Part shown: positions 5,236 through 62,411 of the stretch, piece by piece
How the letters are laid out: every line of letters starts with the position of its first letter
How positions within the stretch are numbered: position 1 is the stretch's first letter
From: Diphasiastrum complanatum
Lineage: Eukaryota; Streptophyta; Lycopodiopsida; Lycopodiales; Lycopodiaceae
Assembly: GCA_029204225.1 (NCBI GenBank)
Contig: CM055097.1
Location: 47,304,617-47,368,616, forward strand
Length of the DNA: 64,000 nt
Reading direction: 5' to 3'
Notes under the pieces: model-generated
What the model was told of the DNA's origin: nothing
The model's input: the letters and a program-made list of their open reading frames with translations, nothing else
The model's database searches: none
Position numbers and translations under genes: made by a program

Positions 5236-5526
5236 GGCTTGGATCCATCTGTCCTTTTTTGGACTTACAATCGCCTCCTCGAAAGTCTATGGTTCGCCAT
5301 TGAATCCGCAGAACTCTTCTGACGTGGAAGCTGAGCTGCCTGGCACATATCTTGCTGGCACTCTTTGTGGTCTTATCGACCTTCTGGGAGATCCTCCTGG
5401 GACAGCAATGCCTTTGCCTTTTTTTGCTCTACTCGGTCTGGAACCATCTTGGTTTACAAGAACTACAGCGACAGGCTGTCTCTCGAATCTTTCTTCTTCA
5501 GATTCATCGCTCGAATGGAAGACGAC

Positions 5527-6551: not shown

Positions 6552-6799
6552 TTAGATTATATAGGTCTCCTTTCCTTTTGTCTTGAGCGATTAGAGTACT
6601 GGTACTGGCATCAATCATGCTGCATGCTTCGTCAAAAAACGTCACATGCATCATTGCATTTGCTATTCTTGCTACAGAAAGCAAGTCTTGTTGCAGAGCA
6701 GGCAAAACAGAATGTCTTTGAGTCGTCTGTCTCTACCGTTGGTGTTGAGCCATAGTGAACCAATACCATTTACTTGATGCTTAGATCCATCTCCAAGAA

Positions 6800-7189
6800 C
6801 TATGAATCTGCACTTCTAAAATCAGACATTATTCGTCTTGATGTCACAAAGTGTGAGGTGGCTCCTGAGTCTAGGATTACCTCTTGTGTGTCAGATGTTG
6901 ACGCTGCACACACGTCTTCACAGATGTAGGTGGTCGCACAGTTTCTGTTCGTTCTTTCTTTGCCCATCTTTGAGCTCTCAAGCTCCTCGACATGGGATGA
7001 ACTGTTGCTATTCTCCTGTCTGTTCTGTGCTGATTTGTTCCTCGGGTTCTGGTGGCAATCCACGGTTGTGTAACCCTTCTTGTGGCAATGAATACACTCA
7101 ATATTGGGATTGAGCCAGCATGTATCTACTGTATGCCCGTCTCTTATGCATCTCACGCAAGTCTTCTTGTCTGCACCTTGTTGCTTCAA
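6800..7189 (-). pseudogene. Copia 1 nucleocapsid zinc knuckles and protease
   Basis: Two CCHC-like knuckles are visible: CVRCIRDGHTVDTC (canonical CX2CX4HX4C) and CIHCHKKGYTTVDC (the His replaced by Tyr). They are followed by EVILDSGATSHFVTSRRIM, an intact DSGAT aspartic-protease active site. Loss of the second knuckle His is a sign of decay. Confidence 0.8.
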
Positions 7190-7416
7190 CCTCCCTTTGC
7201 TCTTCTAGTTGCCCTTGCTTGTTCCCTCTGCTTGGATTTTTTTTTGTTGCCATAGAGGGCCTGGTCAGAATCATCTTTGTGAGCAAGATGTTCTCTGGCC
7301 TTGACTTCCTCTTGAATCTCGACAATCATCTTTTCGAGGTACATGGTAGGATCTTTCGCGAGCAGGATTCTTGTCGTTTGGAATGATCTGGGTAAGTCTC
7401 TCAGCAGGTACGTGAG

Positions 7417-10265: not shown

Positions 10266-10357
<92 letters not shown>
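10265..10357 (+). repeat. (CT)n microsatellite
   Basis: About 90 bp of almost pure CT repeat with one early interruption. No LINE-type terminal hairpin or SINE promoter boxes were found directly upstream, so unlike the minus-strand tracts at 44-60 kb it is not visibly an element tail. Confidence 0.95.

Positions 10358-23756: not shown

Positions 23757-23819
<63 letters not shown>
23757..23819 (+). repeat. (CT)n microsatellite
   Basis: About 60 bp of pure CT following the dispersed repeat, at the place where copy 1 has (GT)n. Confidence 0.95.

Positions 23820-24301: not shown

Positions 24302-24387
<86 letters not shown>
24185..24387 (+). mobile_element. Candidate tRNA-derived SINE with (CT)n tail
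   Basis: TAGCCAAGTTGG at 24194 fits the pol III A-box consensus TRGCNNAGYNGG at every position. GGCTTGAATCT at 24235 fits the B box GGTTCGANTCC at 8 of 11 positions, and the 41-bp spacing is normal. The body ends in a possible stem-loop (AGCCT..GAG......CTC.AGGCT, 24277-24300), then ATG, then (CT)n at 24303-24387. That is the same end design as the LINE copies at 44-61 kb, although the hairpin sequence is different. No target duplication was identified. Confidence 0.5.
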
Positions 24388-24390
<3 letters not shown>

Positions 24391-32201: not shown

Positions 32202-33476
32202 ATGACCACTCCTCAGGGACCTGATCAACCCCAGGAGAGAGGCTTTGACGAACTTGAAACAGAAGCCTTGGCTTACAGAAAAGGGAAGGAACCCATGGAA
32301 GTGGAAGAACAGGAACAGTTCGTCGAAGAACTCGACAAACTGGTTACCAAGGAGCAGTTTCTCCAATTGGTAACAGAAGTGGATGAACTGAAGTTGGCAT
32401 TAGCCAATTTCAAGTCCAGTGTGGACGACTCGTTCGCTGAACTCAAAAACTTGATTTTGAGTTCCGCGAAAAGGAAGCCTTCCCTCCACTTCTCAGTTAT
32501 CCCCTTCTCCACTTCCATCAGTTTCGGGTGAGACTTTACGGTCTCACCACAGTGTTTTTAAAGACTTGAAACCTCCTACTTTTAATGGGGAAGAGAAGGA
32601 TAGAAATGCAGATATTCTACAAACCTTCCTCAGCAAATGGAAGAACATTCATGCTCTTAAACAGACCCCTGACCATTTGCAAGCTATTGAGGCCAGTCTT
32701 TCCTTAGGGCCTATGGCCTATAAGTGGTGGTTAAATCTCCAGGAGACTGGGCAGACTCCCCGGTCATGGAAAGCTTTCCTAAGAGAATTTCTACCAGAAA
32801 ATGAATTGGATAGAGCCTGGGAAGCCTGGGAAAGAATAGTAATGGATAAATCCCTCATCCAATATATCTCGCAGTATTGAGAAGCAATTTTAAAGGTTAA
32901 AAATATGGATGACTATCAGAAAATTAGGGGATTTGTCCGTGGCCTCAAAGATGAATATAAAGTAGAGGTCCAGAGAAACTCGCCTACTACCCTTGAGCAA
33001 GCTCTCAGATATGCTCAAATCTATGATGATTCAGTGGGTAGGAAGAGAGCGAGACAACAACCACTTTCTGAGCAGCCTCCTCAGAAAGACTTTCAATTTA
33101 AAAAGAAATTTTTAAAAAGAAAGAAAGAAGATAAATTTAAAAGTGAAGCTCCTCAAAAACGCCCTTCACTCATACAGCCCTTAAAACCAGATGATTTTGA
33201 GAAAGCCAAACAAGAACGTTTGTGCTTTGTGTGTATGAGCAAGGGACACACAGTTAGACAGTGTCCCAAGGGGCCTTTCACTAAAAAAGATAAGAAAGAT
33301 AAAAATCAAGTTCATCTTGTTCAGACTATATGTTTCCCCAGTGACTCGGCAGCTTCCGAGATCAAAGTGTATCATGAAGATCATGAACACTGTTGCCAGC
33401 TGACCTTTGCAATGCTAGCGAGACCTTTCAGCTTTGGGCCACATGACCTAGTACGTATGCATGGGAAAAGTTGGTA
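32202..33476 (+). pseudogene. Gypsy B gag with zinc knuckle (frameshift and stop)
   Basis: It starts MTTPQGPDQPQERGFDEL and runs through a coiled-coil-like acidic part (to ~32500). A frame change near 32490-32530 follows, then KPPTFNGEEKDRNADILQTF, MAYKWWLNLQETGQTP and FLREFLPENELDRAW, a typical gypsy gag core. An in-frame TGA at 32878 interrupts it before MDDYQKIRGFVRGLKDEY. CFVCMSKGHTVRQC (33226-33267) is an intact CX2CX4HX4C knuckle after a Lys-rich region. The gag end overlaps the start of the pol frame. Confidence 0.88.
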
Positions 33477-34537
33477 ACCAGTCAGTAAGAGTTATGGTTG
33501 ATGATGGGGCAACCCACAATTTCATCAACTACACCCTGGTTAAAAAGCTTAAACTACCAGAAGTACCTAGTCAGCATAGGTACATAGTTTTATTAGCTAA
33601 GGGTGAAGATAAAAAAATATGGGAAACTATGGTAAATAAGTTAAATCTTGGTATTCAGGGGTACCAAGATGAAATAAACTTTCAGATAATGCACCTGGAT
33701 CGAACAGATATTGTTCTCGGGAGAGATTGGCTCTACAGTTTAGGACCTTCCCTTCACAGAAACTATCAGGAGAACGCCCTCAGCTTTCAGCATAAAGGCC
33801 GAGAGATGCAGTTGCTTGGGGAGCATGATGTTCCCAACAACCCTATGGTTTGCAGTTCAAAGCTCTGTCAGCTAATCGGGGACGAAGACCATCAGGTATT
33901 CTTATGTGACTTTCAGTTTATTCCTGAAGTTTCTATTTCCAGTTCTATTCAGCAGAAAATTAGTAAATTAGAAACTTTATTGTCTAAATTTAAAGATGTT
34001 TTTCCTGAAGATTTGCCACATGGTTTACCACCTAGCAGAGAGGTAGATCATGTAATAAACCTAGTACCAGGTACAACACCTATTTCTAAACCTCCGTATC
34101 GGGTCAGCCGAACAGAGGATGAAGAAATAACTAGGCAGTTAACAGATTATCTTGGGAAAGGCCAAATTCAGACCAATAGTTCACCATGGGCCTCACCACT
34201 CCTATTGGTGAAAAAGAAAGAGGGGTCTATGCGTCTTTGCGTAGATTACAGAGCCCTCAATAAAGTCACAATTAAGAATAAATACCCTATGCCTCGGGCA
34301 GACGAGTTGTTTGACCAACTCGACGGGGCTAAGTTTTTCAGCAAAATAGACCTCAAATCGGGATATCATCAAGTCCGTATAAAATCGGAAGATGTCTCGA
34401 AAACAGCTTTTAGGACTCGTCACGGTCATTATGAGTTTAAGGTGATGCCATTTGGGCTCACAAATGCTCCAGCTACCTTTATGACCTTGATGAACAGTGT
34501 CCTCAGACCATACTTGGGTAAGTTTGTAGTCGTATGA
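33461..34537 (+). pseudogene. Gypsy B protease and N-terminal RT
   Basis: The 358-codon open stretch begins with a retropepsin ([18 protein letters not shown]; the active-site triad DSG appears as DDG), then [15 protein letters not shown] follows: [87 protein letters not shown] (motif A, catalytic Asp present) and [21 protein letters not shown] (motif B). The frame is lost at GKFVVV, exactly where YDD should follow. Downstream sequence resumes in another frame as DDILVYN, consistent with a 2-bp loss. Confidence 0.9.
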
Positions 34538-34930
34538 CATCCTCGTTTACAACAAAACGAGGAAGGAGCATCTAAAACACCTCAGAAAGGTGTTTCGACT
34601 GCTCAGAAAGCATAAGCTTTATGCTAAACAATCCAAGTGTGAATTCTTCGTTGAAGAAGTAGCATATTTGGGTCACATTATCTCTTCAGATGGGATTAAG
34701 ATGGACCCAAATAAGGTTAAAGCCATACTCAGTTGGCTGAGAGCTCAGAATATTTTGGAACTTCAGATCTTTCTTGGTTTGGCGGGATATTACAGACGAT
34801 TTGTCAAGGAATATGCTCAGATAGCAGTTCCTATGACAAATCTTCTTAAGGGGAAGGGAAAGGAGTTCATTTGGGAGTCCGCATAGCAGGAGATCTTTGA
34901 TGCTCTCAAAACAGCCTTAGCTACAGCGAG
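34538..34930 (+). pseudogene. Gypsy B RT C-terminus, RNase H deleted
   Basis: After the frame break the RT thumb reads LRKHKLYAKQSKCEFF, VAYLGHIISSDGIKMDP, FLGLAGYYRRFVKEYA and PMTNLLKGKGKEFIW. A TAG at 34884 stands before QEIFDALKTALATA. RNase H should follow, but the sequence jumps within ~50 bp to a linker and integrase. Confidence 0.85.
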
Positions 34931-34969
34931 CTGAGTTTTACTCAGATTTGTAATGAGTTACTCGAGTCC

Positions 34970-35662
34970 TTGAGAGGGAAATGCCAGCATGATGCATTCT
35001 TCTCTACTATCTGGAACTCAGTCCAGAACAGACAGTTACAGACTCCAAAACCAGTTTCCAGGGCTGGTGCCAGTTCATCCAAGAATACGGCAGCTTCCGT
35101 TGAGGAGGATGATGAGTTCGAGTATACATCGTCAGATGACGTTGAGGATTCTGAGCCTGTATTACCCAAGCAAACCCCAGCGGTTGAGGGTCAGTTGACT
35201 CAAGGATTCAAATGGAAACAGTATTCCATTCAGGATGAGTACTTGCTCTATAGAGATAGAGTATGTGTCCCCAATTCAGAGGATTATAGGCAGCAGGTCC
35301 TATATGAATGTCATGACAATCCTAGCGCGGGATAGCCAGGCGTACAGAAGACCTATGAGCTTCTTTGTAGGCAATTTTTCTGGCCCAGTATGAAAAAGGA
35401 CGTCCACCAGTATGTAACTAGTTGCCAGAAATGTCAAGTAAACAAAGCAGAGCGTTTAAAGGCAGGAGGGTTGTTGCATCCCTTAGAAATACCAGCTGGT
35501 AAATGGGAGAGTATCTCCATGGATCTTATAGTAGGCCTGCCTAAAACCCAAAAGGGTAATGACGCTATATGGGTCACAGTTGACCGTCTGACCAAAATGG
35601 CTCATTTCATTCCGACCAAAACAACCGTTTCAGCCACGCTCACCCACAACTGTAGGGTTTAA
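34970..35662 (+). pseudogene. Gypsy B integrase N-terminal part
   Basis: An acidic linker is followed by YLLYRDRVCVPNSEDYRQQVLYECHDNPSAG, a stop (TAG where H of HPG is expected), then TYELLCRQFFWPSMKKDV and CQKCQVNKAERLKAGGLLHPLEIP (zinc-binding). The core starts SISMDLIVGLPKTQKG (first catalytic Asp) and DRLTKMAHFIPTKTT, and breaks off at 35640. About 150 residues, including the second Asp and Glu, are absent. Confidence 0.85.
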
Positions 35663-36237
35663 ACAAGAAAAAGTTGAAGCAGCCAGAAACTTTTTAGAGG
35701 ACCTAAACCAGATGATAGAACATGCTAAACGTAGCATTAGGCAGTCCCAGGATCGAGCCAGGCATTATGCAGATCCACACAGACGGGATGTGCAGTTCTC
35801 CACTGGTGAGAAAGTCTACTTGAGAGTCCCAGTTGACTCTAAAACCCTCAAATCAGGAGTGTGTGCTAAGTTGTCTCCAAGGTATTGTGGTCCCTTTACC
35901 ATCAGTAGGAGACTAGGCGAGGTCACCTATGAACTAGAACTCCCACACAGCAGTATGGTTTTTCCAGTCTTTCATGTAAGTCAGTTACGAAAAGCCTTAA
36001 CCAGATCAGATAATCTGGTAGGGGACAGTGTGCTAGTTCTCCCATTGGATCCTCAGCAACCTCCACATGAACCAGAGGAGATTCTTGATAGTAGAGAGAC
36101 GTAGACTCGTCATACTTTATACCGAGAATATCTGGCTAAGTGGAATGATCAGCCTGTTGAGAATGCCACTTGGGAAAGAGGCAGTGTCCTTCGCAAGATT
36201 TTTCCAGACTTTGTCTTAGAGGACCAAGACGGTTCTT
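35640..36237 (+). pseudogene. Gypsy B integrase C-terminus and chromo-like tail
   Basis: After the deletion joint: GFKQEKVEAARNFLEDL, DRARHYADPHRRDVQFSTGEKVYLRV, KLSPRYCGPFTISRRLGEVTYELELP and VFPVFHVSQLRKAL (GPY/F module). The tail EEILDSRE, stop, TRHTLYREYLAKWNDQPVENATWE is chromodomain-like (LVKW.....ATWE). It ends at VLEDQDGS just before the polypurine tract. Confidence 0.85.
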
Positions 36238-41699: not shown

Positions 41700-42540
41700 C
41701 AGATATCTCATTAATAGCAATAGGTTTAATATCTACAAATCTGATAATGCCATCCCTATAGATCATTGGCGTTCCGTTCGTTAGAGCCTCCTGTTTTACT
41801 TTTTTCCGTTCTCGAACCTGAATGAAAGTAAAGTCTTCATCCAGATATATCTGGGTATTCCGTAGTATAGATCTCTTACCTTAGCACTTCACGATGACCA
41901 GATGTAGATATGAAGCGAACAAGAGTATCTAGATATTTCTTAGGCCGCCATGTAGTATCCATATCTTTGTTGTGGTGTTGGAGACTCTCTTCTAAAACCT
42001 TCTTAGCTTCAACAACAACATAATGGGAGTTCGTAACACCTTTGACCCGAACATTAAGATCTTTTTGCTCTCGCAAATGGCTCTTAGTGAACGTAGATGA
42101 GATAAATGAAGATGGAGGTGGAAGTATTTTAACCTTTTAGCACATCTGCCAAGTTCGGACAATGGTATGATGCTGTTCCACTTAATTCTCAAGTTGTTGG
42201 ATCTTAGCTGGAGTCGTCGAGTGAGAAGAAGCTTCGATTTTGATGGCTGTTCAGGTATTCATAAGAATGTAATCGATCTGCACAAGTGACATAGATCATA
42301 AAGGTTGGAGGCACAAGTGCTTCTGCTTCTGGGGTATCCGGGGTCAAAGGAAGGGCTATAGTGGATTCATTATTAACAATGGGGTCTGACTGAGAGATAG
42401 GGATTGCCACTGGAATAGAAGGAGAAAGTTGGTTTGAAATGGAAGAAGAAGATGAGGCAGATGAAGAGGATGAAGCGGATGAAGGAGTGTTGGAAGGAAG
42501 GGTTGGTGCACCACCCTTCTTACTTTTGGCCATGATTCGA
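41700..42540 (-). pseudogene. LINE ORF1 remnant, copy 1
   Basis: It starts MAKSKKGGAPTLPSNTPSS followed by a Ser-rich tract (near 42530). Later comes LNVRVKGVTNSHYVVVEAKK, LEESLQHHNKDMDTTWRPKKYLDTLVRF and, in a shifted frame, TQIYLDEDFTFIQVRERKKV then MIYRDGIIRF. These line up with the ORF1 of the intact LINE (FNIRVRGIANGGKPLEEA, FDTAWRSK, IYMDDDLTNTQWLARKK, VVFIDGKPRF). The coiled-coil centre is missing and ORF2 does not follow. Confidence 0.75.
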
Positions 42541-42774
42541 ATCCTTTGCAAGCAAACAGTCCTGGTTTTGCAATCTGCTTGGACATCCGTTGGAAATCAG
42601 CTTGGGGTGGGGGGGGGGCATGTTTATAGGCTAGCCATCGTTGCACTTGATTGAATCACAGGCAGCAAATCATTGCAACTGGGCTTAGTTGGCAGGTGCA
42701 CTGGGATGAACCTTGACAGATCTATTGTTGAACTGGAAGCATGCTTATCTAGCCATTTGTAAGAGATCTAAACA

Positions 42775-42965
42775 CCACAGTAGGGCAAACACAAAACTGA
42801 TCCACCCAACCTTGCCTACTCCTTGATATGGAGTAAGCCCCTCCTAGCCCAATGTGAGGACTGGTAGCATGCATACTGCCATGTGTCGGCTATGTGGCAC
42901 TGACGTGGCCGACTGCACGTCGGGACCCAACAGGGGGCTCTATCCTGCTGATAGGGTCCTATCGA
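42775..42965 (-). mobile_element. Gypsy B-family LTR fragment
   Basis: Reverse complement of about the second half of the gypsy B LTR (CCTCCTAGCCCA.TGTGAGGACTGG, CACTGACGTGGCCGACTG and more). It is joined without the integrase C-terminus or polypurine tract to an integrase piece, so an internal deletion or recombination made this joint. Confidence 0.85.
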
Positions 42966-43594
42966 GAGAGACTCCTCCCAATTAGTTTGCTTCTTGCTGA
43001 TGTATGCACAAAGCATATTCTCCAGCACCTGATTTACCCTCTCTGTTTGACCGTCCGTCTGTGGATGGTCGATGGTACTCATATTAAGTTTAGTATGGAG
43101 ATGATGGAATACTGTCCTCCAAAATTTTCCATTAAACTTACTGTCCCGGTCGCTGACTATGCCAGAAGGTAGACCGTACAATTTAAATAGCCCGTCTACA
43201 AACAACCTCGCTCTGGAGCTCTAACGGTTGTTTTGGTCGGAATAAAATGAGCCATTTTGGTCAGACGGTCAACTGTGACCCATATAGCGTCATTACCCTT
43301 TTGGGTTTTAGGCAGGCCTACTATAAAATCCATGGAGATACTCTCCCATTTACCAGCTGGTATATCTAAGGGCTGTAACAACCCCCCTGCCTTTAAACGC
43401 TCTGCTTTATTAACTTGACATTTCTGGCAACTAATTACATATTGCTGGACGTCCTTTTTCATACCGGGCCAGAAAAATTGCCTACGAAGAAGCTCATAGG
43501 TCTTCTGTATGCCTGGGTGCCCCGCACTAGGATTGTCATGACACTCATATGTTGGGGTATTTTGTGAAATTCTGAGGTTTAATCTAGATCCCAA
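42966..43594 (-). pseudogene. Gypsy B-family integrase fragment
   Basis: The translation reads ECHDNPSAGHPGIQKTYELL, CQKCQVNKAERLKAGG, SMDFIVGLPKTQKGNDAIWV (first Asp), then FKLYGLPSGIVSDRDSKFNG (second Asp), TDGQTERVNQVLENMLCAYI and NWEESLS. It keeps the catalytic stretch that element B lost, with a ~60-bp loss between TKTT and FKLYGLP. Orientation is opposite to element B and to MKK3. Confidence 0.85.
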
Positions 43595-44269
43595 GTGGGT
43601 ATCTCACCATTTACAAAATCGGAAACCCTTAAATTTGTTTATCGCTTTATCCTTTACTTCTTAGTAATTTCTTGAATATTCGACATCAGACTGGTTAATT
43701 AATTCTTTCCAGCATGAAGTTATTCTTCTGAAAGACTGTTATATCATATGAATTACTTGTGTGAATAGACTTGGAATTCAGATAAATTCTAAGATGATCG
43801 TGTTTCAATTTCTTAAACCCAGGATATCTCTTTTGCACAAATGGATTTTAGAGGAATGATAGTTATTGTCGCTCGGGTTGAAAATATTTGAAGGAAAAGT
43901 TCTGATTGTAATAGAGTGAATTTTTTTCTGTGGAATGCACTTATTACTGACTTTTCATAGATTTAGATATGTTCATATATCATCTTTCCAGTTAACTTTT
44001 ATAGAAATTGGTAATTTCTTATAAAGGAGGGGTGAAATGATGGGATAAAATTCTATCTGAGGACCTATTGGTTGCATAGAGAACCAGTTGTGGTATAGAA
44101 ATGTGATTTTCTGGATGTAATTTCGAATAAATCTCTACTCTCATGCTTCCTAATCCTTGGCTTGGGGGTGAAGCTTCTGGAGATTGGTTGGATGCTTCTA
44201 TTTGGTTGGGAGGTTTTTCCATAGTGTGTTCTCTATTGTTTTGTCTTGTAAGCAGGATCTTGAGGTGGT
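43595..44269. other. Unannotated intron sequence
   Basis: AT-rich, with stops in all frames and no recognised element. A short (CAT)n run lies at 44290-44310 just to its right. Confidence 0.4.
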
Positions 44270-44602
44270 TTCCCTTACAAGGTAAGTCGTCATCATCATC
44301 ATCATCATCCCTATCAGATGCTAGATTCCGTCGTCTTCTCCTAGATAAGGAGGTAATATGAGGTTAAGAAACCTGGGTTGTCTAACATAGGTCCTGTCGT
44401 AGTAGAAACATTTGTCGTATCATTAGTGCAACTCATCGGGAGTCCTCATAGGCTATGAGTGATTGTATTGTGACGGGCGTGTAATGAAACAGACAATGGT
44501 ATCTTCCTCTGATCTCATAGTATATAGGGCACTTAAAAAAGTGCTCCTCCGACTCCATCTCATCCAAGGAACATAACTGGCAAATCCGCTCCTCTTTCGG
44601 GA

Positions 44603-44604
<2 letters not shown>
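44270..44604 (-). pseudogene. LINE ORF2 C-terminal fragment at the chain end
   Basis: RIPKEERICQLCSLDEMESE and EHFFKCPIYYEIRGRYHCLF form the zf-RVT-like CX2C...HX4C module. After a frame change come ALMIRQMFLLRQ and SRRRRRNLASDRDDDDDDDDLPVRE, corresponding to the last ~120 residues of the intact ORF2. It starts abruptly at the (CT)n tail of the next LINE copy. No own 3' hairpin or tail was found to its left. Confidence 0.8.
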
Positions 44605-44667
<63 letters not shown>

Positions 44668-45712
44668 TTTATTAATGTCTTTTCCATGCCAAAAGGCATA
44701 TATGACCAAATGGAGTACATGTCAAGTATGTGAAAACCAAGGTAGCATATAAAACTACAAACTGCCAACTGTCCATAAGGGGGGAGCAAAATAGCTGCCA
44801 GGAGTAGAGTAATATCATGTGCGAACTGCTGCATGACTATGAGTGATACACTGTCTCTGACTTTCAGCTGTGATAGCTCTTGCTTCAAAAGCTGGAACTC
44901 TGTTCTCATTTGGTCGGCTTCCCAAGAGGAAAAGAGTTCAACTGATTTGGAGGGAGTGTAGGGAATGGGTACGGTAGATGGAGGAGCTGTGAGTTGGTGT
45001 TAAGATGATGTGGAAGAGGAGGGTGAAAGGGAGGGGAGAGCAGTAGTGAGAGAGGAGGAGAGCAGCAGTGAGAGAGGAAGAAGAAGAAGTGAAAGTAGAG
45101 GAAGAAGAAGCGAGAAGACGGAAGGTGGAGGGGGGTGCCATGTCAGCAGTAGCCAGCTCATTGGGCAGCAGATGTGAGGTGGCATTGGGGGCTGAGGTGG
45201 CAGCAATAACGAGGGGAGAGGGTGAGGTGGCAACAACAAAGCCTGAGGTGGCAGCAACAGCAAGAGGGGAGGTGGCAATATCAACGAGGGTGGCAGATGC
45301 GCCATCTGTTTTGGTAGCAACAAGTGCTGAGGTGGCGGCCATCTAGCTTGGCAGCAGCATCGAGAGGTGGGGTGGGTGAGATGGCAATAGCGAAGGGGGT
45401 GGGGGGGTTGAGGTAGGAGGGCGAGGGGGTGGGGGTGGGGGTCTTGCGAGCAACTCGAGGAGGCGCCATAATAGGGACAGGTTCAACGAGGGACATGTAG
45501 CGAGGGGGGCAGTAGGGACAGGCAGTTAGCGAGGACAGGGGCTAGTGAAGTCAACGAGGACAGGAGCAAGGAAGGCAGTTAGCAAGGACAGGAGCGAGGG
45601 CAGTCAACAAGGGCAGCACATGCATCGAGAGTGAGGGGCAGGAGACAGGCAACGAGGGTCAGCAGACAGCGAGGGAGGTCGGACAAGGAGGTCAGAGGCA
45701 GGGCGCACGATC

Positions 45713-45716
<4 letters not shown>
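44605..45716 (-). mobile_element. LINE copy D: both ends present, middle deleted
   Basis: On the minus strand: GC-rich repeat leader (45480-45716), an ORF1 start at ~45470 (MAPPRVARKTPTPTPS, cf. MAPKKKEGVLTPPS in the intact copy), Ala/Thr/Ser-rich low-complexity coding, then YTPSKSVELFSSWEADQMRTEF matching the intact ORF1 coiled-coil start (YTPSKPTESLFAYDLSFIRQEI). It then jumps to a short 3' UTR, the terminal stem-loop (44677-44706) and (CT)n at 44606-44663. The rest of ORF1 and all of ORF2 are missing, so D is non-autonomous. Confidence 0.75.

Positions 45717-45784
<68 letters not shown>
45717..45784 (-). repeat. (CT)n tail of LINE copy E
   Basis: About 67 bp of (GA)n on the plus strand. 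On the LINE strand it follows ATTAATAAAAT after the terminal stem-loop. LINE D's leader begins immediately on the other side. Confidence 0.9.
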
Positions 45785-45788
<4 letters not shown>

Positions 45789-46786
45789 ATTAATGTCCTT
45801 GAATACCCTAAGGTACATAGGACTAAGAAAAGGTGCATGTCAAGTGTGCACATAGGAGCTTAAAGCTCAAATTTTTATAAAACAATAACTGCAAATACAA
45901 TGCATAAAGATGACTGGCCCAGTCAGGGTACAGCAGGGAATCGTATATCATGATGCCCATCAGCATGGAAGAAATGGTGGATGGTATGCTGTGAAGGTGT
46001 TCCCAAGCCTGCAACCAGCACCACCACACTGTGTAATGACTCTCTCCAACTCACCAATATACAAGCCAAAGAGGACTGGTGAGAGGGAGCAACCCTGCTT
46101 CACCCCAATAGTGCTCCCAATGTGATCAGATATGCCACTGCTATGCCGGAAACATCCCAGGACACGCTCATAAAGTGCCATCACCGCAACCTCCTCAATC
46201 AAGGCTCGTAATGTGAAGATGTGATCTGTAGTGGAGTAATGGGCCCGAAAACCTGCCTGACCCATAGCATGTAGTCTCCTAGTCTCCGCCTCTGAGATCA
46301 CAACAAACTGAAGTATAGTACCATATAGCTTTGCTAGGACATGCCCAATCATGATGGTGCGGTAGTTATTCGGAGTCATGGGGTCACCATTCTTATGGAT
46401 GGGGTGGATAATGTTAGTGCACCAAGATGATGGGAAACTGGAAATAACTGCGGAATTAAGAAAGGTGGCTATGGTGGGAACGAGTAGGTCAGACGCATGG
46501 GAGAGAAGTTCAGACTCAAGGTCTTCAATATCTCTGGCCTTGTGGGACTTCATCTTCTTAATGGCTGCAAGTACCATGTCAGATGTGAAGAAGGAGAACT
46601 CAGATGGTCGTGGAGATATAGAAATAGGTGAGTCGGTAGGGACGGTATACAGGCTAGTAGCATAATCAGTCCAATGCGGAGGTCCTCCAGGAGAGGTGGT
46701 GGAGAACAAGGAATGAACTCACGCCAAAAAGCGCCCGAGGAAGAACTGGAAAGAAGGTCAATAAGACGTTTCCCTTCAGAATCATC

Positions 46787-46788
<2 letters not shown>
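45785..46788 (-). pseudogene. LINE copy E: 5' truncated and internally deleted ORF2
   Basis: It starts mid-ORF2 at the neighbour's (CT)n tract: KRLIDLLSSSSSGAFWREF, then in another frame YATSLYTVPTDSPISISPRP, AIKKMKSHKARDIEDLESELL, NNYRTIMIGHVLAKLYGTI and MGQAGFRAHYSTTDHIFTLR. A gap removes ~45 residues including RT motif A (FVDFRKAFDSV in the intact copy), then ALYERVLGCF and STIGVKQGCSLSPVLFGLYI. Sequence after motif B jumps to the 3' UTR, so YADD is missing. The terminal stem-loop lies at 45795-45823. Confidence 0.85.

Positions 46789-46789
<1 letters not shown>

Positions 46790-46868
<79 letters not shown>
46790..46868 (-). repeat. (CT)n tail of the intact LINE copy F
   Basis: About 79 bp of pure (GA)n on the plus strand, lying between LINE F's 3' UTR and the truncated start of LINE E. 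Confidence 0.93.
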
Positions 46869-46871
<3 letters not shown>

Positions 46872-46887
46872 AGAATTATTATTATTA

Positions 46888-46916
46888 ACGTCTTTTGGTG
46901 CCCAGGGGCACATAAG
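46888..46916 (-). promoter_or_regulatory. LINE 3'-terminal stem-loop (copy F)
   Basis: On the LINE strand the outer stem GTCTT/AAGAC encloses the inner stem GTGCCC/GGGCAC with a two-base loop, then TTAATAATAATAATT and (CT)n. Equivalent hairpins occur in five other copies at 44677-44706, 45795-45823, 51968-51997, 59730-59759 and 61502-61531, with paired base changes. A role in template recognition by the LINE RT is inferred from known stem-loop-dependent LINEs. Confidence 0.8.
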
Positions 46917-47099
46917 ACAAAAGAGAGTACAAAATGTGAGAAGCATTGTCCGCATAAGGACTTATTTACCAATGAAAAGACAGTAAAACTAAAACTAAAA
47001 TATCGATCTCTCTGTCTCTAAGAGAAAAAGTATCCAAGCTTGACCACCAGCTGGTGAGGGTACAAAGCAAGAGCTTAACCACCTGCTCCGCGGAGGAAA
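46917..47099 (-). mobile_element. LINE F 3' UTR with a duplicated element
   Basis: Just after the ORF2 stop the minus-strand UTR contains two imperfect copies of an AGCTTAACCACCAGCT-like block (plus-strand view 47036-47085). A second small hairpin (GTCC..GGAC, near 46945-46965) follows. Both are conserved in the H copy at 59800-59910. Confidence 0.65.
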
Positions 47100-50000
47100 C
47101 TAGCTACGAGCAAGCCGAAAGTAATGAGTGATGGTAGTAGTGGGTCGTGATGTAGGCTGGTGGGAGGCGTATGAAGATCTAGTAGCACTGGATCGAGCCG
47201 AAACTCTCTGTGTCTTCGATCTTCGGACGGGGACGTCAAAATCCGCAACCGAAATATCCACTCTGTCTCGCTTCTGGAAGAACTGAGTAATGTGAGCCTG
47301 ACTGGAATCCATATCTGAGAGCGTAGGTAGAAGTGAAGCTCGTAAAATATACATCTCTCTCAAAAGAAGACCCACACATCTAGCATCTGGATACTCGAGG
47401 AAGGAGCTCAGCGTGAGGGGAATATCTCGGTATAAACAATGGTATCGTCCTCTAATCTCATAGTATACTGGGCAGCGAAAGATGAAATGAAACTCATCTT
47501 CCACCTCCTGAAGAGAACAAAGCTGACATATCCGCTGCAATCTGGGAGTGTCTGTGTATCTACCTGTCTCGATAGCAAGCTGATGAGAAGAGACTCGAAG
47601 CTGTCCTATACGATATCTCAGACCAAAAGATAGCGTCTGTGTAAGATAAACTGGAAGAATAGGCAAGCCCGAAACGTCCAGCCGTAAAAGATGTGTGCCA
47701 TAATAATGTAGCTTGACCCTATCTGGATCAGGATGTGACCATATAGTGCGTATGTAGCTCCGGTAGATCTGCTGTCTGATATAAGCATGGGTTCCATTCG
47801 GAAGATCAAGTGCGGATAAACCCCAAGTCTGAAGAAGGGCTGAGACACTGCGATACCAAGAGTGCTTGGCTCCCTGATCTGCAATGGTACAAGATGAAGT
47901 GAGAGCAGCAACAATGTATCTGGAGGTATCTAGATCTGATACCCTGTGAAGAAAGGTGATGATCTGAAACATAGCACCAACAACTAATGGAGGAGAAGCA
48001 AACTCGGCTAGTATGATATCATGTGGTACTGAGGGCTTAGCCCGGATTATCCTACTGAGCATGAGAATCTGGATACGAGTAAGATCTCTCCATGTATCGC
48101 GTGATAAATCAGGGCACCAAGTCTCAGCCGAATATAGCACAACTGGGGAGACAGTAGCAGAAAATAGTAGGCATCTGGTAGCAGGATCCTGCACATAATA
48201 AGTAGAGCAAAATCTTTCCATATGCACAAGAGCGGTATGCCCCTTGCGGAGCCTGGCGGTGGCTGCTGGTCGAAAAGTGAGTAGCGGACCAGAGAAAAGA
48301 ACTCCCAAATAGGTGTAGGAGGTCACGATCTCAATCGGTAGCCCGTCATAATAGAAAATCACATCTCTCATATGCTGTCTGTTGGTGTTAAACACCATAA
48401 TCTTAGTCTTCTTAAGGTTAACCGTCAATCCCCAACGCTGGCAAAAGTGATGTAAAGCAGAAAGGTGACTCTGTAAACCAGCTGCAGAGGATGAGAGGAG
48501 AACCACATCATCAGCGTACAAGAGAATGGGGATAATAATGTCTGCTAGGGGACAGCCCTCTCCACCTTCCTCGCGAATAATCCGCTCGAGGTCATCTATA
48601 TATAGTGCAAAAAGAGTGGGTGATAAGGGGCAACCCTGCTTCACCCCAATGGTAGAATGTATCTGTGAGGACCAGCCACTACCATCTCTGAAACGTGCCA
48701 AGACTCGCTCATATAAAGTAATGATCGCAGCAATAGTATCCTCTGAAAAGCCAAGTGAAGACAGTCTCTGGAAAAGAAGATGTCGTGGAACAGAGTCAAA
48801 AGCTTTGCGAAAATCCACAAAGCAACAGTAAATTCTCTGTTTCCGATGTCGAGCCTCCTCAATAATGCATCTCAAAATGAAGATCTGGTCTGAAGTAGAA
48901 TATCCCGGTCTGAAACCAGCTTGACCCATAGCGTGTAAACCCTCAGTTTCAGCAAAAGATCCAGTGACTGTCTGTAGTATAGAGCCATATATCTTAGCTA
49001 GAGTGTGGCCAATCATAATGGTGCGGTAGTTTCCTACATTCATGGGATCACCTGCCTTGAGGATGGGGTGAAGGATATTAGTACACCAAGCCGTAGGAAA
49101 ACCAGAAGTAACAGCTGTGTTAAAAACATGAGCAATGTAAGGGGAGATGAGATGTGCTACGGGCTTTAGGAAGTCTACACTTAAGGAGTCATAGTCTGTG
49201 GCTTTATTTAGTTTGGCATGTTTAATGGCGTTTTCAACCATGTCAGGGGTGAAAAGTGAGCAGTGGTCAGGTCTCGGTGAGAGTGAGGTAGGAGGAGAGT
49301 CCGTGGTATATAACTCCGTGGCATACTCGATCCAGGATTCGATGGCTATGGGGGCCAATGTTGAAGAGTGTCTGGTGAAATGTTTCCAGAAAAAAGAGGA
49401 GGAGGGTGAATCTAAAGAGTTGATCATTTTTTGGCAGAGTGATTGTAGGTACTTGATCTTCTTTGTTCTGGTGGTTCTATGATATTCTTTCTGGCATTGT
49501 TTGAGTGTGGCAGGGGAGTGTGACCTGGCATATGTCACATGATTGTGAAGAGAGCGGCATTCTGCATCATACCATCTGTTGTGAACACTTCTGTGAGATG
49601 ATGTCGTTTTGGTGGGGAAGGATGAGGAAGCAGCAGCTAAGAGGGATGTAGAGAGAAAAGTGGCTTGCTGGTCAATTGGTGCCATGAATGGGAAGTTAGC
49701 GAGTAGTTGGGATAAGATTGTGGTGTAATTAGTGAATCCAGATTGGGTGAAAGGAATACGTTTATGAGTGGGAAGAGAGCAAGAAATTTGCAAAGAAGAG
49801 GTTATGTGACCAAGTGAGATGTGTAAGAGTGAGTGATCGGAAATGGTAGGGGGTGTGATGGAGAAATCAGAAATGTGAGAGATCAAAGCAGGTGATCCAA
49901 TGAAGTAGTCGACCACACTATGTCCTCCACCATGAGGATAGCATGTATATGCTGATGAGGAAGGCCACTGTGTGAGGCCATTCAAAATGGCAAGAGCGTG

Positions 50001-50603
50001 TGTCTCTGCTAGAGTGATCAACTGCTCCCCGAAAGATGTAGCTGGAGTGTCTGCATCCTGTGATACCCGGTCTAGCCCCATATCCAAAGGGTAAAGCCTG
50101 AGAAGATCCGTAGCTGCATGAAATTCGGTTTGTCTAGAGCTTGTGCGGGCGTTGAAATCACCTGCTAGTAAAATGGAACCCTGCTGAGAAAAGATAGCAA
50201 TATCATCTGAGAGAGCCTGAAAAGGGTCCCCGCCAAACTCAGCAAACACTGAGGTCTGTGGAGCAAAATAGCATACAGCTATATAGATGTCCTGAGGTAA
50301 TCCCAATAGTGAGCCAATAATGTGTAACCAAATATAGCGAGCGTATGGATCTTGTTTAACCATCTGAACTGTGGTGTCTCTGTATAAACAAGCTACTCCT
50401 CCAGATCCTCGACAAGTTTTTCCCCTAACAAATGGACGAAAAGCAGAATGCCAAGAGTACTCCTGTATATTTGGAAGAGGATGATATAAGGACTCATGAG
50501 TTTCAGCCAACAACAAAATGTCGCATTTTCTAATAAAATCAGCAAAGTCTCCGGCTGATGACGAAGATAAAAAACCATTACAATTCCAGAAGCCAAGTCT
50601 CAA
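47100..50603 (-). CDS. LINE ORF2: endonuclease-reverse transcriptase
   Basis: 1167 codons without interruption. Residues ~1-260 are an EEP/APE-type endonuclease: MRLGFWNCNGF, ILLLAETHESL, GSILLAGDFNART and TISDHSLLHISLG (catalytic SDH). RT starts ~528 (NYRTIMIGHTLAKIYG), motif A ~598 (FVDFRKAFDSVPR), motif B GVKQGCPLSPTLFALYIDDL, motif C ~698 (LLYADDVVLL). The zf-RVT-like finger is at ~1023 (ICQLCSLQEVEDEFHFIFRC). All catalytic residues are present. The C-terminal tail is Ser/Arg-rich. The protein nicks target DNA and primes reverse transcription of its own RNA. Clade placement (L1-like) is inferred; the exact clade needs a tree. Confidence 0.95.
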   Translation of the reverse strand: MRLGFWNCNGFLSSSSAGDFADFIRKCDILLLAETHESLYHPLPNIQEYSWHSAFRPFVRGKTCRGSGGVACLYRDTTVQMVKQDPYARYIWLHIIGSLLGLPQDIYIAVCYFAPQTSVFAEFGGDPFQALSDDIAIFSQQGSILLAGDFNARTSSRQTEFHAATDLLRLYPLDMGLDRVSQDADTPATSFGEQLITLAETHALAILNGLTQWPSSSAYTCYPHGGGHSVVDYFIGSPALISHISDFSITPPTISDHSLLHISLGHITSSLQISCSLPTHKRIPFTQSGFTNYTTILSQLLANFPFMAPIDQQATFLSTSLLAAASSSFPTKTTSSHRSVHNRWYDAECRSLHNHVTYARSHSPATLKQCQKEYHRTTRTKKIKYLQSLCQKMINSLDSPSSSFFWKHFTRHSSTLAPIAIESWIEYATELYTTDSPPTSLSPRPDHCSLFTPDMVENAIKHAKLNKATDYDSLSVDFLKPVAHLISPYIAHVFNTAVTSGFPTAWCTNILHPILKAGDPMNVGNYRTIMIGHTLAKIYGSILQTVTGSFAETEGLHAMGQAGFRPGYSTSDQIFILRCIIEEARHRKQRIYCCFVDFRKAFDSVPRHLLFQRLSSLGFSEDTIAAIITLYERVLARFRDGSGWSSQIHSTIGVKQGCPLSPTLFALYIDDLERIIREEGGEGCPLADIIIPILLYADDVVLLSSSAAGLQSHLSALHHFCQRWGLTVNLKKTKIMVFNTNRQHMRDVIFYYDGLPIEIVTSYTYLGVLFSGPLLTFRPAATARLRKGHTALVHMERFCSTYYVQDPATRCLLFSATVSPVVLYSAETWCPDLSRDTWRDLTRIQILMLSRIIRAKPSVPHDIILAEFASPPLVVGAMFQIITFLHRVSDLDTSRYIVAALTSSCTIADQGAKHSWYRSVSALLQTWGLSALDLPNGTHAYIRQQIYRSYIRTIWSHPDPDRVKLHYYGTHLLRLDVSGLPILPVYLTQTLSFGLRYRIGQLRVSSHQLAIETGRYTDTPRLQRICQLCSLQEVEDEFHFIFRCPVYYEIRGRYHCLYRDIPLTLSSFLEYPDARCVGLLLREMYILRASLLPTLSDMDSSQAHITQFFQKRDRVDISVADFDVPVRRSKTQRVSARSSATRSSYASHQPTSRPTTTITHYFRLARS

Positions 50604-50651
50604 ATTGGTGGGGGATCTCGGGTAGCTTCTATATCCGGGGGCCCCTAGTTC

Positions 50652-51560
50652 CTATTGTGGAAGGTCGAAAAATCTCGGTTTCCCGTCAATAAAAACAACC
50701 CTTTGCCCTTTCTCTTTCGCTTCAAGGATAATCTTTTTTCTTGCCAACCATTGAGTATTTGTTAAGTCATCATCCATATAAATGAAAGTACCTTTAAGCT
50801 TTGCCCTAAGCCGAAGGGCAGCATTGCGTTGTGAAAGCGAGCGGAACTTGATAAACAAAACATTGTCATCAAATTTACTGCGCCAAGCAGTATCAAAACC
50901 GTCAGCCACATGAGATAACTTGGAAATGAGCAAATCCGTAGCTTCTTCCAACGGTTTTCCACCATTGGCAATGCCTCTTACTCTAATGTTAAAGGCTTTT
51001 TTGGCCCTTCTGGCTTGTTCACCCAAAACTGTCTCCAAATCGTTTTCCTTCGGAAAAGATGAAATCTGAGAGTGATTACCTTGCTTAAGGATCGATGTCG
51101 TTTCTTCAACCTGTTTTGCGAGTGATGAGAGTTTGCTGCCCATATCATCCGGTTTGAAGAGTGCTGCCCACGTTTTCGTCTCCTCGACTTGTTTCTCCAA
51201 GCTATTGATCTTGTTGGAAGTCTCCTCCAAGGCACTTTTTTCTGCAATTCGTTGCTTAAGATATATATTTTCTTGCTCAAGCTGCTCCACACGTTCCGTG
51301 ACACCAAAAAGATCCTTAGCTAACTTGCTATTTTCAGCTTCAAAGAGGTGTAGTTGTTTCTTAAGTCCAAGAATTTCTTGCCGGATAAAACTAAGATCAT
51401 AAGCAAAAAGACTTTCAGTAGGTTTGGAAGGAGTGTAGTCAATGGCAGCCATGTTGATAGTTTCTGTCACCGAAGACGGCTCCTCCATCACTACCGGTGA
51501 TGGGGGGGTGTCCAACAGGGAGGGGGGTGTAAGAACACCCTCCTTTTTCTTAGGTGCCAT
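50652..51560 (-). CDS. LINE ORF1: coiled-coil RNA-binding protein
   Basis: 302 codons starting MAPKKKEGVLTPPS. Residues ~55-165 are heptad-rich (LKKQLHLFEAENSKL; RVEQLEQENIYLKQR), a long coiled coil for trimer or multimer assembly. Residues ~190-302 resemble the RRM plus C-terminal domain of L1 ORF1p/Transposase_22 proteins: NIRVRGIANGG, FIKFRSLSQRNAALRLR, then IYMDDDLTNTQWLARKKII and RVVFIDGKPRF. There is no CCHC knuckle, whereas many angiosperm L1 ORF1 proteins have one. It ends 48 nt before ORF2. Related but broken copies lie at 41700-42540 and 63720-64000. Confidence 0.88.
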   Translation of the reverse strand: MAPKKKEGVLTPPSLLDTPPSPVVMEEPSSVTETINMAAIDYTPSKPTESLFAYDLSFIRQEILGLKKQLHLFEAENSKLAKDLFGVTERVEQLEQENIYLKQRIAEKSALEETSNKINSLEKQVEETKTWAALFKPDDMGSKLSSLAKQVEETTSILKQGNHSQISSFPKENDLETVLGEQARRAKKAFNIRVRGIANGGKPLEEATDLLISKLSHVADGFDTAWRSKFDDNVLFIKFRSLSQRNAALRLRAKLKGTFIYMDDDLTNTQWLARKKIILEAKEKGQRVVFIDGKPRFFDLPQ

Positions 51561-51902
51561 AGGAGGCGGTAAGCAGATGGAGGACCAGCGCAGGGCAGCG
51601 TAGGGCAGGTGCGAAGGTCAGCACTGCAGCGCCAGCAGGGCGGACAGCAGCGCCAGCAGGGTGGGTGGGCGCGCAAGAGAGAGAGAGGGCAGCAGCGCTA
51701 GCAGGGCGGGCAGCGCACCAGCAGGGCGGGCAGCGCACCAGCAGGCGGGCAGCGCACCAGCAAGCGGGCAGCGCACCAGCAGAGCGGCGAGAGAGAGAGA
51801 GAGGGGCAGGGGTAGCGAGGGAGGGATAGCGCACCAGCAGGGCGGGCAGCGCACCAGCAGGCGGGCAGCGCACCAGCAGGCGGATAGCGCACCAGCAGAG
51901 CG

Positions 51903-51904
<2 letters not shown>
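51561..51904 (-). repeat. LINE F leader: GC-rich tandem repeats
   Basis: Short units of the GCACCAGCAGGGCGGGCA type repeat about ten times. The larger block (several units, GCACCAGCAGAGCGGC, then GA-rich) occurs twice, ~118 bp apart (51712-51803 and 51830-51915). LINE D has a leader of the same style but different sequence. Such monomer arrays act as promoters in some LINEs; that is not shown here. Confidence 0.75.

Positions 51905-51958
<54 letters not shown>
51905..51958 (-). repeat. (CT)n tail of LINE copy G
   Basis: About 53 bp of (GA)n on the plus strand between LINE F's leader and the 3' hairpin of copy G. Part of it may belong to F's leader, whose inner units also end in GA runs. Confidence 0.85.
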
Positions 51959-51962
<4 letters not shown>

Positions 51963-52110
51963 CTAATGTCTTTTCCATGCCATAAGACATATAAGACCAA
52001 ACAATTATTAGATAAGATGGAACCTAGACGGATCAATGCTGTCAAACAACTTAACTAAAGCAAAACTAGCTAACTATAAAGAGATTTTATGGCCAGGATT
52101 ATATGGTGTG
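51959..52110 (-). mobile_element. LINE copy G: 3' end only
   Basis: It shows the terminal stem-loop (51968-51997; inner stem ATGTC/GGCAT with one G-U pair) and a TTAGTAAAT spacer before (CT)n. No ORF2 sequence is recognised upstream. The 5' limit is unclear. Confidence 0.6.
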
Positions 52111-52167
52111 AAGACCACTTACTCATGGCATCCAACAGTGGGTGATCAGTCCACTTGGCATCCATGC

Positions 52168-52463
52168 TCTCCGTGACCTATGAATATTGAGTGACTCATA
52201 AGGTACCAAACCCATGCACTGCCATGGACATGTGACTCGCGCGGTCACCCCAAGTACTTGTCAACTAGAATCTTGTCACACACTGATGGCTAGGGCCCAG
52301 ATGGTCACGATATACTCTCTGTGACCCATGAATATTGATCGACTCATAAGGTACCATCCCCATGCCCCACCATGGACTTGTGACTTGCTTGGTCACCCCA
52401 ACTACTTGCCGGCTTGCATCTTGTCACACATTGATGGCTAGGGCCCAGATGGTCATGATCTTG
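52168..52463 (+). repeat. Tandem pair, 148-bp unit
   Basis: Two consecutive copies (from ~52168 and ~52316) share CTCTCYGTGACCYATGAATA, CATAAGGTACCA, GGTCACCCCAACTACTTG and GATGGCTAGGGCCCAGATGG. They differ at roughly one base in ten. Nothing coding. Confidence 0.85.

Positions 52464-59642: not shown

Positions 59643-59645
<3 letters not shown>

Positions 59646-59709
<64 letters not shown>
59646..59709 (-). repeat. (CT)n tail of LINE copy H
   Basis: About 64 bp of (GA)n on the plus strand. It follows the stem-loop at 59730-59759 and an AT-rich spacer. Confidence 0.93.
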
Positions 59710-59712
<3 letters not shown>

Positions 59713-61447
59713 GAATAGAATATATTAATGTCTTTTGGGTGCCCTTGGGCACATAAGACAAAGAAAAAGTACATCAGAAAGGAGCGTTGTCCATGTTGGA
59801 CTTATTTCTATCCGCTAAAGCTAAAAACAGAATAAACTGGAAATAAAACCAAAGCTTAACCTCCAGCTATGGTGAGGGTACAAAAGCAGTAGCTTAACCA
59901 CCAGCTACGTGGAGGAGTATAACTCACTAACTGAAAGAGAAAAACTGTGTGATCTGGTGTGAGGCACACGGTGGCCTCTGATGATGAACTCTGGACGGTC
60001 GAGGAAGACGTTGGAGCTTCTGTCGGCGAGCTGGAATGTCAATCTCACTATCAGAAGTATCCTCCCTAACTCTTTTCTGAAAGAAAAGTGTAATATGTGG
60101 CTGGCTGTGGTCAATATCCTGATCACCCGGCATAAGTGAAGATCTCAAGGAGAACAACTCTCGCAAAAGTAAACCAACACATCTCGCATCGGGATAGGCA
60201 AAGAAGGAACCAAGCGTGAGTGGAGTGTCCCGATAAAGATAGTGGTATCTGTCTCTGATCTGATAGTAAGCTGGACATAAGAAAATAAAGTGAAACTCAT
60301 CCTCAACCTCCTGTAATGTACAACACCGACAGATCCGTAATGGTCGTGGCATGTCTGTGTATCTGCCAGTCTCAATAGCGAGCTGATGAGAAGAGACCCG
60401 AAGCTGACCGATGCAGTAGCGCAGGCCAAAAGACAACGGCTGAGAGAGATAACTCGGTCTAACGGGAAGCCCTGATGCATCTAAGTGAAGAAAGTGAATG
60501 CGGTAGAACTGAAGCTTAACCCGTGAAGGATCAAGGTGAGACCAAACAATATGTATGTATGCTCTATAGATCCGTCTACGAATGAACGCATGAGTCCCAT
60601 TGGGGAGGTCAGACATAGATAATCCCTAGCTATGTAGAAAGTCCGAAGCATACTGAAACCATGAAGACTTAGCCCGCTGCTCAGCCAAAATGCGAGAGGA
60701 TGTAAAAGCCGCTACCACGTATCTGGAGGAATCAAGCTCTGAGATTCTGTGAATGAATGTGATAATCCTGAAAATAGCCTCGACAAGTAGTGGAGGAGAC
60801 GCAAACTCCGCCAAGGCCAGAAAAGAGAACACCCAAGTATGTGTAAGACGCTACTATCTCTAGAGGCTGTCCATCAAAATAGAACATAGTGTCTCTCATT
60901 TGCTGCCTGTTGGTGTTAAACACCATAACCTTAGTCTTTCCAATGTTCACCATTAGCCCCCATATCTGACAGAAAGTATACAAAGCATCCAGATGTCGCT
61001 GAAGTCCTGTAGCTGAACTAGATAGTAAAACCACATCATCTGCATAAAGAAGGATGGGGATAACAATATTTGCCAAAGGACAGCCATCCCCCCCTTCTTC
61101 CCGAATAATACGCTCAAGGTCGTCAATGTATAAAGCAAACAGGGTGGGTGATTCCCTGCTTTACTCCGACCGTACTATGAATATATGAAGACCATCCATC
61201 TCCATCACGAAATCCAAAACTCTCTCATATAATGTGATGATAGCAGCAATGATCTCCTGTGAGAAACCAAGGGATGAAAGACGCTGGAGCAGCAAGTGTC
61301 GCGGAACTGAATCAAATGCTTTGCGGAAGTCCACAAAACATCAATAGACTCTCTGTTTCCTGAACTTCGCTGCCTAACCAAACCATAGAGCTTAGTCATA
61401 GTGTGGCTGATCATAATAGTACGATAGTTGTCTACATTCAGAGGATC
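59710..61447 (-). pseudogene. LINE copy H: 5' truncated ORF2
   Basis: It starts at GDPLNVDNYRTIMISHTMTKL (61447), directly beside another copy's (CT)-rich tail. A deletion removes ~60 residues. Motif A (CFVDFRKAFDSVPRHLL, shifted frame) follows, then LLYADDVVLLSSSATGLQ (60732-61076), a deletion after YTYLGVLFSG, and FLALAEFASPPLLVEAIFRI. The last 229 residues (59927-60616) are open: LPNGTHAFIRRRIYRAYI, ICRCCTLQEVEDEFHFIFLC and FFQKRVRED. The 3' UTR matches copy F. Confidence 0.88.
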
Positions 61448-61690
61448 ACCCCCCCTTCAGAGAGAGAGAGACAAAAGAAAAAGAAGAAAGATTTTATTAA
61501 CGTCTTTTCCATGCCAATAGGCATATAAGACGAAAAAGTACATGTCAAGTGTGTGGTACAGTAGGAGCATGTGAAATGTCTCCGTTTTAGAAAATAAATG
61601 AGATGCCAATATACTATACTACGAACATGAAGTAGGTCTAAAAAGCAAAGGTCTAATACTGCCAATAAGATAATGGTATAACCCTATGCC
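61448..61690 (-). mobile_element. LINE copy I: 3' end with short CT-rich tail
   Basis: The terminal stem-loop at 61502-61531 (inner ATGCC/GGCAT, outer GTCTT/AAGAC) is followed on the LINE strand by GTTAATAAAATC and an impure CT tract that ends where copy H begins. GTACATGTCAAGTGTG near 61535-61555 is shared with copies D and E. No coding part; the 5' limit is approximate. Confidence 0.7.

Positions 61691-62350: not shown

Positions 62351-62411
<61 letters not shown>

Follow-up and report, generated by a model that had tools for sequence, protein, structure and literature searches.

A LINE lineage of Diphasiastrum complanatum whose insertions are probably directed to (CT)n microsatellites

A 64,000-nucleotide stretch of the genome of the clubmoss Diphasiastrum complanatum (assembly GCA_029204225.1, contig CM055097.1, positions 47,304,617 to 47,368,616 of the forward strand; hereafter the window) holds a head-to-tail chain of long interspersed nuclear element (LINE) copies joined through (CT)n tracts, among them a full-length element that we call F. 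Our analysis of this chain and of copies of F elsewhere in the genome indicates that F and its relatives very probably constitute a D. complanatum LINE lineage that directs its insertions to (CT)n/(GA)n tracts; it has an apurinic/apyrimidinic-type (APE) endonuclease and a first open reading frame (ORF1) predicted to be L1-like. As read from sequence, the support consists of (CT)n on both sides of insertions, a bias in the orientation of neighbouring LINEs, CT that pre-existed and increased at one repeat, CT words at breakpoints, and a 3' hairpin that appears to covary among families.

Results

F copies begin on (CT)n

A 601-bp piece of F returned 2460 first-look candidates in the 1.74-Gb genome, of which 40 were scored, all listed at 100%; many of the best-scored copies are dispersed along single contigs (for example C1, C4, C6 and C8) and over several chromosomes. 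Twenty loci set against the final 2.5 kb of F were 99.4-99.8% identical to it (15 along its entire length, 5 along 1.3-2.3 kb), and collapsing duplicated segments (L017, L020 and L021 repeat L016, L018 and L019) left 17 copies. Fifteen of these 17 begin on same-sense (CT)n, with L028 on (CTT)n and the minus copy in L019 on (GA)n, and in a further set of 12 pieces all nine with a readable junction (L060-L065, L068-L070) begin on (CT)n. With the truncated copy L040, also on (CT)n, and F itself counted as a separate copy, the independent F copies whose 5' junction is readable number 28, and 26 of them start on same-sense (CT)n (25 of 27 without L062). The pattern thus goes beyond the window; about 1% would be expected by chance (1.1% of random window positions have a CT/GA run of at least 20 bp no more than 5 bp away).

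In 13 of the 28 copies (nine of the 17-copy set, L062, L069, L040 and F) the tract is immediately preceded by a LINE 3' end. Non-LINE repeats carrying (CT)n also serve as insertion sites; L014 and L060 have non-LINE flanks with a word near the tract that we take to be a Copia-like primer-binding site. Because these other (CT)n repeats are used and LINE 3' ends precede just 13 of the 28 copies, the target is (CT)n in general, and LINE tails are one common source of it.

Seven copies with one alternative 5' untranslated region (UTR) begin at seven different points of that UTR, every one on (CT)n, which indicates that the tract is part of the target and no fixed end of the element; an eighth copy, L062, matches this UTR over the first 25 bases alone. 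At these breakpoints the CT words exceed in length what is expected from a null model in which the tract may absorb CT letters: their sum was reached by 235 of 100,000 draws with L062 and 576 without it, and by 253 draws in a separate run. The copies truncated within the body, L016 and L040, both on (CT)n, break at CTCTCTC and CTCT.

One F body also occurs with two unrelated 5' UTRs, the monomer type of the window and a second type (L014, L068, L015, L025, L010, L063, L065), which suggests 5' UTR exchange among F copies; L062 may carry a third type.

Empty target sites already hold (CT)n

Three F copies (L024, L065 and L063) occupy copies of a single dispersed repeat, inside its (CT)n, so that filled and empty sites can be compared. 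When the flanks of L024 were joined over a short CT run, 40 of 40 scored places out of 1073 candidates matched without interruption (39 over positions 1-327, one over 1-326), a result that is no frequency because the ranking favours uninterrupted copies. All 12 empty copies read have CT runs of 14-32 bp between flanks that differ by a few bases; the CT of L080 is split into two runs, of 8 and 21. At the filled sites CT content is higher throughout: L024 has the same flanks with (CT)12AAAT(CT)50 before F and (CT)18, 80 bp of CT in total; L065 has the same flanks with (CT)64 and (CT)54, 118 bp in total; and L063 has diverged flanks, the 3' one just 8 bp long in the piece, with (CT)80 and (CT)206, 286 bp in total. 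The gain may reflect either slippage during reverse transcription or later growth. L042 has the 3' flank of the L024 family, and L013 and L070 share a second 5' flank, GACGAGCGGCCA(CT)n, while their 3' flanks are related. None of the 12 empty sites read has the AAAT that interrupts the 5' CT run of L024; this AAAT may mark the true junction.

Since every empty copy read contains (CT)n and the flanks are kept around the insertions, we infer that F entered a pre-existing tract. The kept flanks also argue, within this repeat family, against unequal exchange between GA tracts, which an earlier note on this DNA had offered as an alternative and which is contradicted here, where empty and filled sites are comparable. 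The same note had named two findings that would refute insertion into the (CT)n tails of relatives, namely flanks other than (CT)n at most copies elsewhere and empty sites lacking (CT)n; on both counts the sample showed the opposite.

Tails are CT runs and are often followed by another LINE

A CT-run tail ends each of the 55 copies examined (17 + 30 + 7 + F), the shortest 6 bp and the longest 257 bp, and a microsatellite is thus found on both sides of insertions, in 26 of 28 at the 5' end and 55 of 55 at the 3' end. Counted by unequal criteria, a same-orientation LINE follows the tail in 27 of the 55: in 7 of 17 where it starts at or near the tract (leaving out L016, whose downstream LINE begins at 777 bp), in 18 of 30 by protein matches within 1.2 kb, in 1 of 7 by eye in 300-bp pieces, and at F (1 of 1). 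LINE protein matches within 1.2 kb downstream in the 30-copy set lie in the same orientation in 18 copies and in the opposite orientation in none. Another F-type 5' UTR comes after L068, and chains of at least three LINE pieces occur in L012, L035 and L050. On the evidence of the 5' junctions and the empty sites, the proposal of the earlier note that this LINE inserts into the (CT)n tails of its relatives is supported, with such tails as one source of (CT)n among others.

Some LINE tails resemble (CTT)n or (CTTT)n (window positions 61472-61538, L012:6698-6752, L028:3667-3721), and LINE pieces follow these too; judged by them, the range of targets may be wider than strict (CT)n. Inverted LINE neighbours occur in L010 and L018-L021, head to head across one (CT)n and, in L010, tail to tail via the palindrome CTCCCCGGGGAG.

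The chain in the window

The minus-strand order reported in the earlier note (G 3' end, (CT)n, F, (CT)n, E, (CT)n, D, (CT)n, C) was borne out by the coordinates of tracts and pieces. The tracts at 51905-51958, 46791-46868, 45716-45784 and 44606-44663 are uninterrupted (GA)n/(CT)n, each piece starts where the preceding tract ends, and all share a single orientation. The features of the chain, all on the minus strand, are as follows.

51959..52110, minus: G, LINE 3' end with the hairpin (start approximate; hairpin aligned with 17 others)
51905..51958, minus: (CT)n tract, from the G 3' end to the F 5' end
46869..51904, minus: F, full-length LINE, 5036 bp excluding the tail
46791..46868, minus: (CT)n tract, from the F tail to E
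45785..46790, minus: E, LINE of another family, truncated at the 5' end and with an internal deletion (tblastn)
45716..45784, minus: (CT)n tract, from the E tail to D
44664..45715, minus: D, 5' UTR and ORF1 start fused to a 3' end by internal deletion (by eye)
44606..44663, minus: (CT)n tract, from the D tail to C
44388..44605, minus: C, ORF2 C-terminal piece beginning at the tract (tblastn)
61459..61471, minus: short (TC)n tract of 13 bp, from the 3' end of I to the truncated H
59710..61458, minus: H, 5'-truncated LINE, ORF2 from about residue 532
59645..59709, minus: (CT)n tail of H, followed by DNA unrecognised as LINE

Matches of E are confined to ORF2 residues 416-704, hence its C-terminal part is missing too. 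C matched over about 220 bp, and no 3' end was seen for it. The claim that I and H repeat the pattern held in part: the junction is similar, but the tract has only 13 bp, and the tail of H runs into DNA without recognisable LINE sequence. Four further long plus-strand (CT)n tracts lie in the window (10266-10357, 23758-23819, 24303-24388 and 62353-62410); none has a recognisable LINE 3' end before it, and they are possible unused targets.

Internal deletions are common among copies about 99% identical to F (L010, L017, L022, L026, L028, L038, L039, L050), and D and E resemble such F-like copies elsewhere in having them. Other repeats in the window include a degraded ORF1 of another LINE (41728-42596, minus strand), whose C-terminal part is 34-41% identical to F ORF1, a 148-bp tandem repeat in two copies upstream of G (52167-52459), Gypsy-like pol frames (32461-36104, plus; 42816-43603, minus) and Copia-like frames (4795-7204), the last two kinds identified by eye.

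Anatomy and kinship of F

F comprises the following parts.

51676..51919, minus: 5' UTR built of tandem 58/116-bp monomers that contain CT runs (as called, the array extends into the tract)
50655..51560, minus: ORF1, 302 aa from the first ATG (open frame)
47103..50651, minus: ORF2 open frame, with APE-type endonuclease, reverse transcriptase (RT) and a C-terminal CCHC-like motif
46881..46927, minus: 3' stem-loop, GUCUU..GUGCC/GGCAC..AAGAC

Matches to PF03372, PF14529 and PF00078 place endonuclease and RT on the single ORF2 protein, and copies show 5' truncation with a fixed 3' end, as in an APE-type LINE. The endonuclease has weak matches, exclusively to L1 EN. In a phmmer search R2 (87 bits) and L1 (79 bits) scored about equally. 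ORF1 is a 97% match to a D. complanatum protein; it had no Pfam match above the cut-off and is predicted, from a model of middling confidence, to contain a coiled coil, an RRM and a C-terminal domain. The best Foldseek hit of that model was the human LINE-1 ORF1p trimer (2yko/2ykp), and in a second look other RRM proteins scored equally high.

F and 24 other RT fragments from D. complanatum loci and the window formed a single clade with support 100/99, to which two further proteins are sister; the rows include F copies and duplicated segments, and many of them are short. For the D-type family, a 30-base 3' motif was counted 1182 times on one strand and 1196 times on the other, and its reversed pattern gave 0. 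No relatives turned up when viral contigs were scanned.

The stem-loop before the tail is common to 18 LINE 3' ends of several families. Across 17 distinct rows, 94.1% of hairpin cells pair, compared with 89.5% after shuffling, and double changes occupy 12 cells in 3 pairs, compared with 3.1 in shuffles, none of 500 of which reached 12; the F stem-loop thus appears to show compensatory changes among families. The whole 3' UTR of F folds no better than its shuffles (z -0.43).

Discussion

The arrangement of F copies suggests how such insertions could proceed. The F endonuclease would nick the GA strand of a tract, and the (UC)n tail of the element RNA, lying beside the conserved 3' hairpin, would pair with the exposed GA end and prime reverse transcription, during which slippage could lengthen the tail. 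The end of the complementary DNA, whether full length or stopped early, would then join the upstream CT strand through the microhomology of a CT word, which would fix the orientation and leave (CT)n on both sides. With a (CT)n tail on every element, old copies would become targets in their turn, and head-to-tail chains would accumulate.

Three other explanations were weighed. Unequal exchange or repair between (GA)n tracts might have stacked unrelated LINE copies with no insertion preference at all: long tracts of one kind would be expected to invite recombination, and rearrangement of such regions is evident from inverted neighbours and from duplicated segments (L016/L017, L018/L020). Against exchange, the L024 repeat family keeps its empty-site flanks around insertions that have different 5' ends, conserved at L024 and L065 and diverged at L063; non-LINE (CT)n sites are used as well, and seven different endpoints of one 5' UTR all adjoin (CT)n. 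We regard exchange as very unlikely. Alternatively, the elements might land anywhere and bring the microsatellite with them, on an RNA that starts in upstream (CT)n and ends in a (CT)n tail. Such an origin would agree with the CT runs of all 55 tails and with the (CT)12AAAT(CT)50 of L024, which looks like a 4-base filler between target CT and element CT, but 5'-truncated and variably started copies also stand on (CT)n and the 12 empty sites read have it already; the variable starts and the empty sites together rule out RNA-borne 5' (CT)n as the sole cause, and the explanation as a whole is extremely improbable. It is likewise hardly credible that the tracts grew after insertion, by expansion of short CT words at random junctions. 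The tail tracts do vary from 6 to 257 bp, and filled sites do contain more CT than empty ones, but (CT)14-32 is already present where F would insert in all 12 of the empty copies read, and such growth is implausible at nearly all 5' junctions, in one sense, in copies 99.4-99.8% identical to F.

Several observations nevertheless weigh against insertion directed to (CT)n. The F copies sampled were the best-scoring ones in contig order, with no random draw; 3 of the 12 pieces of the second set (L059, L066 and L067) end before the 5' junction, and that of L042 is unreadable. The minus copy in L019 starts on (GA)n in its own sense and L028 on (CTT)n, and L062 was counted although its 5' UTR is recognised over just 25 bases after the tract. 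Insertion in one orientation predicts no inverted LINE neighbours, yet these occur in L010 and L018-L021, with inverted LINE 3' ends after L010 and L019 and an inverted ORF1 further on in L012. The comparison of empty and filled sites covers one repeat family, and target duplications are unreadable within a microsatellite. As for the hairpin, its structure was taken from the fold of F, itself among the compared sequences, and two measures are unexceptional, the number of pairs with double changes being reached by 57 of 500 shuffles and the number of pair types by 408 of 500.

Among the known systems closest to F are Kibi and Koshi, animal elements of the Tx1 group that Kojima and Fujiwara reportedly described in 2004 as targeting (TC)n. 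They and F are alike in being APE-type LINEs with a pyrimidine microsatellite as insertion site, and differ in that their hosts are animals; neither chains built on their own tails nor a net gain of target is known to have been described for Kibi or Koshi. Human LINE-1, which has a poly(A) tail, would share the ORF1 domain layout predicted for F, and the F endonuclease weakly matches L1 EN; F differs in its (CT)n tail, conserved 3' hairpin and (CT)n target. The site of human LINE-1 is given as TT|AAAA (PMC13295347), and the same paper, a 2026 study of Bov-B, confines site-specific LINEs among APE clades to Tx1 and R1. Microsatellite-targeting LINEs are already known from animals: Togen elements, from fish and near NeSL, are (TG)n-specific, and some HERO families are microsatellite-specific (Kojima and Jurka 2015, PMC4640811). 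These resemble F in their specificity, but NeSL and HERO are among the restriction-like-endonuclease groups (PMC4640811), their repeat unit is another one, and the hosts of Togen are fish.

Zepp of green algae, like F a LINE of the green lineage with nested clusters, forms one cluster of nested copies per chromosome, probably centromeric (PMC3446292), and is also given as telomeric (PMC10088271). The sampled F copies, in contrast, lie scattered over several chromosomes on (CT)n, and the best-scored among them show no single cluster per chromosome at a centromere or telomere; on the scatter of this sample, telomeric or centromeric self-targeting of the Zepp or HeT-A type was rejected. The telomere-targeting LINEs (SART, TRAS, Tx1-1_ACar, GilM/GilT and the HeT-A/TART/TAHRE arrays; PMC10088271) share with F insertion into short tandem repeats or head-to-tail arrays, but are telomeric, whereas the target of F is dispersed (CT)n.

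Among the entries listed by a literature search over titles and the beginnings of abstracts, mostly excluding subscription papers, there was no (CT)n-targeting LINE of land plants or lycophytes, which does not prove their absence; as far as that search reaches, the F lineage would be the first microsatellite-targeting LINE reported from a land plant. Ancestral plant L1s have been proposed to recognise a specific 3' end, with stem-loops persisting in one lineage (Ohshima 2013, PMC3747384), and the F lineage fits that proposal. With thousands of candidate places and many near-identical copies, a single genome would allow tests of how a dinucleotide repeat becomes the preferred target of an APE endonuclease, and of whether a retrotransposon yields more target than it consumes and thereby drives microsatellite growth. 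We tentatively entertain the possibility, to which we give somewhat less than even credence, that the lineage makes its own habitat: with each insertion a single (CT)14-32 tract would become two, together 80-286 bp long, so that targets would outgrow their use, arrays would seed themselves, and most long (CT)n in this genome might be LINE products. If this is true, the F lineage would be a plant transposon that multiplies its own landing sites.

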